From: Fragilariopsis cylindrus CCMP1102
Taxonomy: Eukaryota > Bacillariophyta > Bacillariophyceae > Bacillariales > Bacillariaceae
Assembly (NCBI GenBank): GCA_900095095.1
Contig: FMBT01000336.1
Span: 62,001 to 126,000 of the forward strand
DNA length: 64,000 bases
Direction of reading: 5' to 3'
Every line of letters starts with the position of its first letter. Position 1 is the stretch's first letter. The position numbers were made by a program, and so were the translations under genes. Below are positions 38,779 through 42,335 of this stretch, in pieces. The notes under the pieces are model-generated. The model was not told where the DNA came from. It searched no databases and was given only the letters and a program-made list of their open reading frames with translations.

Positions 38779-39498
38779 CTAACGGGGAATTCGACGGGCC
38801 AGTCTCCATGCAGGGCGCCATTTTGATGATGCTGCTGTGGATGATGGATACGATTCTTCTGCGTCGATTCGTCCCTTAACACGAGCATTTATTTCTGAGG
38901 TTTGTGTATGATATTTATACACATTCCTAATCTTTTCAACATCATACATCAATGATCGTTGCTGTGAGAGAACTGCTTCTTCGTATTGTATATATTGTTC
39001 ATCTAAAACAGACCAAATAGCATTCTGACGACGAATTTTTGTAGAATGCTTCAATCCTCTTTCAACTGATAAGTTTTCAAGACCTCTTGCACAGTACAAA
39101 GACGATAATGACGACTTATTATCCTCCTTATCGTCGCTACTGCTGCTGCTGCTACTGCTGTCACCGATGCTACCACCACTGAATAGAGTATTATAAGGTG
39201 ATACTGATATTTTCATTAGATTGAGTGTTGCATACAATCCCTTTTGAATATTATTATATTCGATAGATGTGTACCAACATGCTTCTATTTCTTGATTGGT
39301 ATAATGTTTCAAGTGAATGGTTGATTTCACTTTAACCTTTGTATGGAATCGAACTCGTAATGAAGATTTTTTAGAAGTTTCGATGCTGTTTTTGATTATC
39401 TCAACACTACTAATTTTGCTATTGTTTGATGGTACAGTAGCCGATATCGATTTTACTGTGCTAGAGGGAGAACACGGATGAGATGCTTGGTTGGCCAT
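38779..39498 (-). CDS. Diatom hypothetical protein, VRF/RGLE type
   Basis: I chose the ATG at 39498 (MANQASHPCSPSS) over a start 36 codons upstream, whose extra residues look like untranslated leader. The 239-aa protein has a core of VRFHTKVKVKSTIHLKHYTN, EIEACWYTSIEYNNI, CARGLENLSVER and IWSVLDEQYIQYEEAV, then IRNVYKYHTQTSEINARVKG. I recognise this arrangement as a recurrent low-complexity-flanked protein type in diatom genomes, with no assigned function. A Ser run (codons AGC) splits the middle. Promoter CRE elements lie 131-384 bp upstream of this ATG and could serve this gene, the bestrophin, or both. Confidence 0.7.
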   Translation of the reverse strand: MANQASHPCSPSSTVKSISATVPSNNSKISSVEIIKNSIETSKKSSLRVRFHTKVKVKSTIHLKHYTNQEIEACWYTSIEYNNIQKGLYATLNLMKISVSPYNTLFSGGSIGDSSSSSSSSDDKEDNKSSLSSLYCARGLENLSVERGLKHSTKIRRQNAIWSVLDEQYIQYEEAVLSQQRSLMYDVEKIRNVYKYHTQTSEINARVKGRIDAEESYPSSTAASSKWRPAWRLARRIPR

Positions 39499-39596
39499 GA
39501 TATGGGTTGTATTGGATATTTCTCGTGGTTGTTTGTTGTATATAAGATATCGTTTTATGTTTTGTGACAAAACCAGCAGAAGATACTGTAGTAGAC

Positions 39597-39755
39597 AGTC
39601 AATCACAAATGAATTTTATTCATGAATATGACGTCATTATTAAGTTGACATCAAGTATTCAATCACAGAACTTTGGATCTCGAATCTGACGTCATATTGT
39701 ATACGGGATTCCGAACATCTTTTTTTAAATTCTGGTCGCGAACCCGACGTCATCC
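39597..39755. repeat. Three tandem ~58-60 bp units, each with a CRE-like site
   Basis: CAATCACA begins units at about 39600 and 39660. TGGATCTCGAATCTGACGTCAT and TGGTCGCGAACCCGACGTCAT end units two and three. The CRE cores start at 39629, 39687 and 39745, exactly 58 bp apart. Confidence 0.75.
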
Positions 39756-39882
39756 ATAGTCACCTTACACATCTTAGCATTACACTTTTGGCTATTATCC
39801 TTGTTTATCCATTCAATAAATTGTTGGAATTGCTCATATTACTTGCTTGGGGGTGATGTAACTGAAAACTTCAATGACGTCA
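39629..39882. promoter_or_regulatory. Cluster of CRE/CCRE-like elements (TGACGTCA)
   Basis: Perfect TGACGTCA palindromes lie at 39629-39636, 39687-39694 and 39875-39882, and CGACGTCA lies at 39745-39752. The intergenic stretch separates a minus-strand hypothetical gene from the bestrophin gene on the plus strand (302-548 bp upstream of its ATG). In Phaeodactylum, TGACGT/ACGTCA elements (CCREs) bound by bZIP factors control low-CO2-inducible genes. Function here is inferred from that precedent. Confidence 0.65.
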
Positions 39883-40183: not shown

Positions 40184-42335
40184 ATGATGAATGTTTCCTG
40201 CGCTAGTGCTCGCCGTCGAAACCGACGAGCTCCTGTAGTTCTAGTACTAACGATTGGATTTTTAGCTATCATCTCAACATTAACAACATCAAAATCAACG
40301 AGAATGTCCATGTGCTTGGCTTTCAACACGATGACACCAGCTATATCGTCAACTAACAGAAAAATTGCTACAGCAACAAAAACAACAAGATTGTATAATG
40401 GAGGAAGTAGTTACGATGACCAATATGCCAATTTTTATAATACAAACAACGACGACGCTACTGAGAACAACAACGTTGTGGCAGAGGTGGCAGCAGTAGA
40501 AGATTATGACATTTCTTCGGATAATACCATGATGGCTTCCATCACCAACAATGGAACCGAAGAACATGCTACTCCTCCTCCACCACCTACTGCTACTGCC
40601 TCTGCTGGATTTGGTCCTGGATTTGGTTCGTACCTTGAAAGTCTTAATGGTGTTGGTAGTGCGAATATTAATGGTGTCGTTGTGGAACAACAACAGGAAC
40701 AAGTTTATTATGAGGCTACCAACTCGTATGAAGCGCCGCCAGCACAACTGGAAGTGGAAGAAGTTCATGTCGTAGTAGAAGAAAATAAATATCCTTTTAC
40801 GGCACTCGCTTCTATGGGACTTGCTTCTACTCTGATTGAAGAAGTAGTAGAAGAAGAAGTATGGGTCCCCCCATCATCTTTCTCAACACCAGACCAATAT
40901 AATTCGTCACCAACATTATCAGCACAATCACCAACAATATCGGTGACGTTACCGGTTGGATTACGACCACCTAAATTTGGTCCGAAAAAAGACATTACAT
41001 ATGGTGAAAATTCCAGAAAATTCCGTCGGACTGTCTATACACATGAAGATTGGGTCCGACATCGAAGTCCGGATCGATTTTTTCGATATATTGCCAGTGT
41101 ACCAACCTCAGGAATAGCGAAGAATTTAGCTCGTGAACTCTATTTTTTAACAGCTATCACAGCTATTGTTGTTTTATACAATGGATTAATTACTGGTTAT
41201 CAAGATATTAATGGTATTGCACATGGTCCCGTTTGGTCTAGTCCATTCTTACCACCATTAACATTACCAATGCAACCCTTTGCGTTAGCAAGTCCATCGT
41301 TAGGATTGCTACTTGGTAAGTTACTATTTCTTTCTTTCAGTTCCGATTTTAATTTTGGTCTTTATTATTCGATGGTTTTGTTTTATTTCTTTTTCTCCTA
41401 ACTTTACTTTCTCTTACTTCGCATATTTTATAACAACTTTGACGATAACAACGCCAAACGAAACCAATAACTATCAATTCCATCCAATCCGATTAAAAAT
41501 TCAATCCTTCTTAATTATTATACAAATGCAAAAAGTCTTTCGATCCAATACGGCCTATCAACGATGGGATGAAGCCCGAAAAAATTGGGGAATGAATATT
41601 AACCATACACGTGATTTGAATCGGATGGCGAATGCGTACTATGATAAGACTGGTATTTCGGATGAGAAACGAAAAGATGACTTGGAACGTCTAAGTTTAT
41701 GTACCTGGGCATTTGTGAGAGCGATGAAACGACATTTAAGTCCGGCGGATGAAGATGAGGCAGCCTTTAAGGCAGAATTATATGAAAAATTACCTAAGTT
41801 ACAGGCGCAGCAAATCATTAAGGCGGCACATCGTCCAAATCGTGCATTGTATGATTTAAGTTTGGCCATTGAAAACCTACCAATGCACTTTCTACGAAAG
41901 AATAAATTGCATGCCGCATTAACGATCTTTGAAGACACTCTTGGTTCGTCGGAACGGTTACTAACATCGCCCGTTCCGTTAATTTACAATCGTCATACGT
42001 CACGATTTTTATTAGTTTGGTTACTTCTGTTACCATTCGCGTTATGGGAAGAATTTGGCTTTATGTGGAACCATATAGGGATGATACCAGGAATGTCCAT
42101 ACTTGGTCTACTGTTATTCGGTATCGAAGAATTGGCAACTCAATTAGAAGAACCATTTACTATATTACCGATGCAAGCATTTTGTGATAAAATTTGGAAT
42201 TGGTGTAATGAAATTGCCAGTTGGGAAGATGGTCAGAATGGAATAACAACAAACCGATCGTACCAGGGTCGGACTGAAGTGTACGTCGATAACAGTTATG
42301 AAAATGAAAATGCATACACAACACCAACCCCTTAG
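40184..42335 (+). CDS. Bestrophin-type anion/bicarbonate channel, plastid-type pre-sequence, two exons
   Basis: Exon 1 (40184-41315) and exon 2 (41536-42335) flank a 220-bp GTAAGT...AAAAAG intron. Splicing turns LGLLL|V into the bestrophin block LGLLLVFRSNTAYQRWDEAR, for 643 aa in total. The N-terminus has a signal segment (APVVLVLTIGFLAIISTL) and the diatom plastid cleavage pattern MCLAFNTM. About 220 disordered residues follow, with SSYDDQYANFYN and GSYLESLNG. The channel domain starts near residue 290 (SPDRFFRYIASVP) with several membrane segments, and later shows LPMHFLRKNKLH, FLLVWLLLLPFALWEE and FGIEELATQLEEPF, the bestrophin Ca2+-clasp region. In algae, thylakoid bestrophins feed bicarbonate to the lumen near the pyrenoid. 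CRE elements sit upstream. A bicarbonate role here is inferred. Confidence 0.9.

Follow-up and report, generated by a model that had tools for sequence, protein, structure and literature searches.

Four CRE-type sites precede a bestrophin gene in Fragilariopsis cylindrus, and three of them recur in the same order before a sister bestrophin gene. The promoter looks like a real control region, since most of its sites are kept before the sister gene and similar clusters lie near other likely carbon-supply genes. Our preferred reading, to which we assign a probability of about 0.58, is that the stretch 39629–39882 is a regulatory module of the bestrophin gene at 40184–42335, driven by a bZIP factor at low CO2 and shut by cAMP at high CO2, with the product serving as an HCO3– channel to the thylakoid. 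A CREB/ATF-like bZIP factor of the PtbZIP11 type would bind the three old CRE sites and the one newer site and, once bound, would drive the bestrophin at low CO2, while raised cAMP at high CO2 would shut it down. HCO3– could then enter the thylakoid through the bestrophin and might be turned into CO2 there by a theta-type carbonic anhydrase, the gene of which also lies behind a CRE cluster. Theta-type carbonic anhydrases are located in the lumen. Coordinates are listed in Table 1 and refer to the window, i.e., the whole 64-kb stretch of DNA that was analysed.

Table 1. Features of the bestrophin locus and its promoter (positions in the window; distances counted from the bestrophin ATG).
Feature	Position	Strand	Remarks
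CRE site 1	39629..39636	.	TGACGTCA; –555; extra copy, probably from local duplication
CRE site 2	39687..39694	.	TGACGTCA within AATCTGACGTCA; –497
CRE site 3	39745..39752	.	CGACGTCA then TC; GACGTCA at –438
CRE site 4	39875..39882	.	TGACGTCA within TCAATGACGTCACA; –309
Degenerate tandem duplication (likely)	39597..39714	+	units ~39597–39654 and 39657–39714
Best conserved promoter block	39701..39754	+	ATACGGGATT to CGACGTCATC, common to C513 and C202
Divergent gene	38779..39498	–	3'-truncated member of a repeated gene family; homologous in DNA to the C713/C403 copies over 38824–39534 only
Bestrophin exon 1	40184..41315	+	presequence (plastid-type by eye), extended low-complexity region, beginning of bestrophin domain
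Bestrophin intron	41316..41535	+	GTAAGT...AAAAAG
Bestrophin exon 2	41536..42335	+	Bestrophin_2, 1.3e-52 for frame 41526–42335

A preliminary description of this DNA had reported four CRE-type sites, three of them perfect palindromes, within 254 bp, the first three lying exactly 58 bp apart. A direct site search bore out both points (254 bp end to end; start-to-start spacing 58, 58 and 130). TGACGT/ACGTCA elements occur on both strands of the promoter, in the three palindromes and as ACGTCA at 39747. The window holds three perfect octamers, all within this promoter (39629, 39687 and 39875). Their number is unremarkable (3 vs. 1.27 expected, with at least three in 12 of 100 shuffles), and TGACGT as a hexamer shows no enrichment across the 64 kb (27 vs. 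35.4 expected). The clustering is unusual: three octamers within 254 bp appeared in none of 1,000 first-order Markov windows, and two within 66 bp in 2 of 1,000. Nor is the octamer equally dense in unrelated DNA, as it occurs about once per 66.7 kb genome-wide. No RNA family was detected in the 64-kb window (Rfam, gathering thresholds).

The downstream gene was confirmed as a bestrophin by a two-exon model (GT-AG intron, 643 aa) and by Pfam, in which Bestrophin_2 (PF25539) matched both exon-holding frames, one at 4e-06 (27 bits, right at the threshold), the other at 1.3e-52. The top solved-structure match of the exon 2 frame was the bestrophin-like protein 7ek1 (7.5e-23), which we take to be plant VCCN1. 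By eye, the N-terminal presequence looks plastid-type, with a putative F-type cleavage motif of a bipartite presequence (MCLA followed by FNTM, i.e., LAFNTM; DAFVTPS and SAFVPPS in the sisters). The protein is probably plastid-located, and the idea of a CRE-type module ahead of a bestrophin with such a plastid-like presequence is supported. The encoded protein also carries a low-complexity N-terminal stretch of ~200 residues (window 40184–41000), which by eye the sisters do not have.

The nearest bestrophins are 73–75% identical and form a head-to-head pair with ~1 kb between the ATGs, present on contig C513 and likewise on C202, a similar contig. Pieces of the two are 81–93% identical and may represent two haplotypes; the intergenic stretches show 90% identity across 940 aligned columns (120 gap columns). 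Each of them holds two octamers plus TGACGTCG, intact on both contigs; an extra half site, TGACGTAA, is found on C513 and is not intact on C202. When the sister pair was read towards one of its genes (BST-B), the alignment of the window promoter with that of C513 scored 26.5, a value reached by none of 300 dinucleotide and none of 3,000 mononucleotide shuffles. It was likewise reached by none of 122 window segments (best 22.5) and none of 418 segments of 1,012 bp from the own genome (best 24.0), the latter including both strands and overlapping loci and therefore not being independent of each other. With the CRE cores masked, the C513 alignment scored 20.0 (reached by 8 of 3,000 shuffles). The C202 alignment was weaker, with a score of 21.5 reached by 2 of 300 shuffles and 7 of 418 segments, and the opposite orientations gave 19.5 for C513 (5/300 shuffles) and 17.5 for C202 (17/300).

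The best conserved block follows the layout ATACGGGATT(C/G)CGAAC...AAATTCTG...CGACGTCATC. Within the promoters, site 2 has its counterpart in the same 12-mer (–497 in the window, –610 on C513, –589 on C202), site 3 in CGACGTCATC (–438, –449 and –426, respectively, counted at GACGTCA) and site 4 in TCAATGACGTCACA (–309, –306 and –282), while no counterpart of site 1 was found in the sister promoters on C513 and C202. As sites 2–4 pair in order with the sister and site 1 stays unpaired, sites 2–4 probably represent the older module, which would predate the split from the sister gene, and site 1 was probably added later by duplication.

This history also bears on the 58-bp spacing, which had been ascribed to a tandemly repeated unit. 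With the CRE core removed, units 1 and 2 remained similar (score reached by 0 of 2,000 shuffles), and both contain TCAATCACA, whose copies lie 60 apart vs. 58 for the CREs. Units 2/3 and 1/3 were, again with the CRE core removed, no better than shuffles (1,065 and 920 of 2,000 reached the score); unit borders were set by eye in all these comparisons. Tandem Repeats Finder reported no array at the CRE sites at its default score. On the basis of the shuffle test and the missing array, a head-to-tail repeat of three units was rejected. A single duplication, giving units 1 and 2, is likely; it leaves the second 58-bp step unexplained. The proposed origin of the spacing is consequently upheld for units 1 and 2 and fails for units 2 and 3. 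One amplified unit as the source of three sites is not supported, as only sites 1 and 2 look duplicated and sites 2–4 probably predate the split from the sister bestrophin.

Across the genome (67,884,144 bases, 818 contigs) octamer counts show no enrichment over the reversed word (1,017 vs. 1,055 occurrences). Octamer pairs at start spacings of 9–39, 44–74 and 75–105 bp gave 15, 11 and 8 matches, and the reversed control word gave 3, 5 and 1, spacings of 40–43 bp lying outside these counts. By place, the matches correspond to 23 loci. Six of them form three pairs, 5.6–5.7 kb apart, with identical twin CREs TGACGTCACATGACGTCA (C88:275382/281084, C91:1100521/1106124, C192:90445/96105), which by their spacing resemble the LTRs of retrotransposons. 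Another seven lie in arrays with shared spacers, which fall into two groups (C87, C260, C664 and C676; C561, C640 and C648); these dispersed arrays comprise two to five CREs, 39–100 bp apart. The remaining ten are outside recognised repeats and represent nine distinct loci, since C95 and C158 carry the same sequence.

At each of these nine loci, frames within 3–4 kb were inspected. Three adjoin carbon-supply candidates, namely the window bestrophin, an LCIB-type carbonic anhydrase and a formate/nitrite-type channel. On C324, octamers at –480, –469 and –357 from the ATG as read precede the carbonic anhydrase (PF18599, 7.5e-55), of the type also named theta. On C90, octamers at –511, –479 and –458 precede the channel (PF01226, 2.5e-59), whose family includes LCIA of Chlamydomonas; a nitrite role for this protein is as likely. 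The neighbours at C95/C158 are Tab2 and a NOP-type gene, and those at C76 are glycine-transporter-type and BCDHK-type genes. One frame each was tested at C507, where it appears plastid-targeted by eye, and at C635, both without a Pfam match. The pair at C307:392719, counted among the nine, lies inside an open frame that is kinase-like by eye and has no Pfam match, and is therefore given no regulatory reading. On C579 (1–3800), the frames that follow a CRE pair carry thioredoxin and cyclic-nucleotide-binding domains. If these frames belong to one gene, a cAMP-binding protein under a CRE promoter is possible; a plastid-like presequence is seen by eye in the preceding frame.

Among the dispersed arrays, the one on C87 has five octamers, and 0.9–1.2 kb downstream of them begins a probable FAS1-delta-carbonic anhydrase gene (distance to the ATG), whose FAS1 part was read by eye and whose exons were joined as one gene by inference. 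The counterpart of this array on C260 has a delta carbonic anhydrase match at the same kind of distance. This enzyme was searched blind to the outcome and matched at three places, two of which (C87 and C260) adjoin arrays, the third being C751. The C664 array lies ~0.5 kb before a UCH-type gene. Clusters are thus also found in repeats and beside genes without obvious link to carbon supply (Tab2/NOP-type, glycine-transporter-type/BCDHK-type, UCH-type). A further, unlikely reading is that repeats such as the LTR-like twin CREs and the dispersed arrays have spread ready-made CRE clusters, including one beside a delta carbonic anhydrase, other carbon genes having gained theirs via local duplication. 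If true, a CO2 regulon would be wired partly by mobile DNA.

For a comparison by gene family, the families (bestrophin, SLC4 and LCIB) were picked before their flanks were seen, and the window was excluded. The pooled loci contained six octamers in 91,962 bases vs. 1.38 expected (Poisson P 0.003), composed of three in bestrophin loci (0.66 expected) and three in LCIB loci (0.35 expected); the family of the divergent gene, serving as control, had one vs. 0.63 expected. No octamer was found in the 24.6 kb of fetched SLC4 loci (0.37 expected), which for four of the six genes covered ~1 kb above the first matched exon. LCIB octamers occurred at C324 only, and the more distant bestrophin loci had a single one, at C268, in fetched stretches that did not always cover the 5' ends. 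Similar second copies were dropped before counting (C202, C393, C271, C522 and C671; C403, C579 and C623 in the control family), while the alike pairs C642/C336, C417/C4 and C260/C571 were kept. A few genes, not whole families, account for the enrichment, the 5' ends being covered for some of the loci. As for further carbonic anhydrases, the beta type (PF00484) had no match in the genome, and the alpha type was found at four places, none on a contig with one of the 23 pair loci.

Control of this type is already known from model diatoms, and CRE-type motifs at a diatom bestrophin have been published for PtBST1 (PMC11142338), as has a shared CO2-responsive motif in Thalassiosira; the following comparisons draw on excerpts of the cited papers. 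In Phaeodactylum, CCRE1–3 (TGACGT, ACGTCA, TGACGC), located at –86 to –42 from the transcription start, confer CO2/cAMP control on PtCA1 and PtCA2 (PMC7378808; work of Ohno 2012 and Tanaka 2016 as described there and in PMC11142338). The bestrophin promoter has in common with them that multiple TGACGT/ACGTCA words, on either strand, lie ahead of a carbon-concentrating gene. It differs in having perfect palindromes 309–555 bp before the ATG instead of mixed half sites near the transcription start, and in belonging to a genome without a beta-type match. PtBST1 itself has two sense and four antisense TGACGT/C motifs within ~300 bp of the start codon and is strongly induced at low CO2, for which its authors propose PtbZIP11 and cAMP (PMC11142338). 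Our gene likewise is a bestrophin with TGACGT/C on both strands, for which CO2/cAMP control is proposed; in contrast to PtBST1, its three octamers and one near-octamer lie further upstream, and three of the four have counterparts at the sister gene. By analogy, the bestrophin is likely CO2/cAMP-controlled. Motif and response do not correspond one to one: PtBST2, 3 and 4 have four, one and no motifs, on one strand only, with low CO2 raising the transcripts of all of PtBST1 to 4, and for TpBST1/2 post-transcriptional control is described (PMC11142338).

In Thalassiosira pseudonana, a CO2-responsive gene set shares an upstream motif over a delta carbonic anhydrase, transporters and photorespiration genes (Hennon 2015, via PMC7378808 and PMC5997998), and bestrophin-like genes of Thalassiosira are lower at high CO2 (PMC5997998). 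Here, too, delta carbonic anhydrase and bestrophin-type genes would lie near a shared upstream motif, as judged from DNA alone, and the candidates differ from that set by including an LCIB/theta-type carbonic anhydrase and a formate/nitrite-type channel. More broadly, a further study of six phytoplankton species saw CO2-dependent changes of bestrophins in every one of them, in some in both directions (PMC5742204). In the open-licence PMC passages considered, we found no description of a three-site CRE module kept between sister bestrophins, the subscription papers (Ohno 2012; Tanaka 2016; Hennon 2015) lying outside this scope, and none of CRE clusters before theta-type carbonic anhydrase or formate/nitrite-type channel genes.

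The rival reading that carries most weight, albeit a rather unlikely one, is that the bZIP module works with light as its input: aureochromes (LOV-bZIP blue-light receptors) or another bZIP factor would bind TGACGT and raise plastid transport genes without a direct role of CO2 or cAMP. PtAUREO1a binds TGACGT of the dsCYC2 promoter about tenfold tighter in blue light (PMC4721966), CCRE motifs have also been put forward as light-control elements of LHCX genes (PMC4915529), and one of the clusters found here stands before Tab2, a plastid gene without CO2 tie. The aureochrome case shares with our promoter the core word and differs in its light input and, in the excerpts considered, in a single TGACGT site rather than palindrome clusters. 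Against the light reading, the cluster neighbours include carbonic anhydrases and a bestrophin, families that are CO2-linked in Thalassiosira (PMC7378808; PMC5997998), and a paper on PtAUREO1a targets names, in the excerpt considered, neither the motif nor a bestrophin (PMC10967249). DNA alone cannot separate the two inputs, and both may act.

Quite improbable in our view is chance combined with local duplication, in which case decayed DNA would carry the octamer without any regulatory role. Octamer clusters do occur in repeats, and pairs of the reversed word (9 vs. 34 for the octamer) are by estimate also above uniform expectation; against this, the order of the sites and part of their flanks are kept in the sister promoter, and a genome search at E 0.001 matched the intergenic stretch to nothing but itself. 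The same search led us to reject the CRE module as part of a dispersed repeat. Least probable is that the cluster mainly serves the divergent gene (ATG 39498, minus strand), which had been suggested to share the promoter. Its ATG is closer to the sites (131–377 bp) than that of the bestrophin (309–555 bp), yet sites 2–4 accompany a bestrophin at the sister locus, and the gene itself, without Pfam match, is a 3'-truncated copy that by eye misses the C-terminal part shared by the C713 copy with relatives on C655 and C579. It is 91–92% identical at the DNA level to the copies on C713 and C403, which resemble each other, over 38824–39534 only. This homology stops 36 bp above its ATG, short of site 1, and the stretches fetched around the C713 and C403 copies are free of octamers, which together argues against the sites having first belonged to the divergent gene and weakens the suggestion of a shared promoter. 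As a family, these genes show an RGLE motif, with longer relatives on C713, C655 and C579 and frame breaks in the C403 copy.

Compared with these alternatives, CO2/cAMP control of the bestrophin remains our preferred reading, and the promoter offers defined sites for telling CO2 from light input. The data further suggest that clusters of perfect CRE octamers, which as such are rare in the genome, are of some use for finding carbon-concentrating candidates by DNA sequence alone, in an alga that has no match to the beta-type enzymes with which the switch was characterised. With regard to the architecture of the other two promoters, that of the LCIB-type carbonic anhydrase (L061:380–560) has a repeated CRE unit of its own, with two copies of AAAATTAATCGCTGACGTCAC, and that of the formate/nitrite-type channel (L007:1499–1563) holds three TGTGACGTCACA sites.
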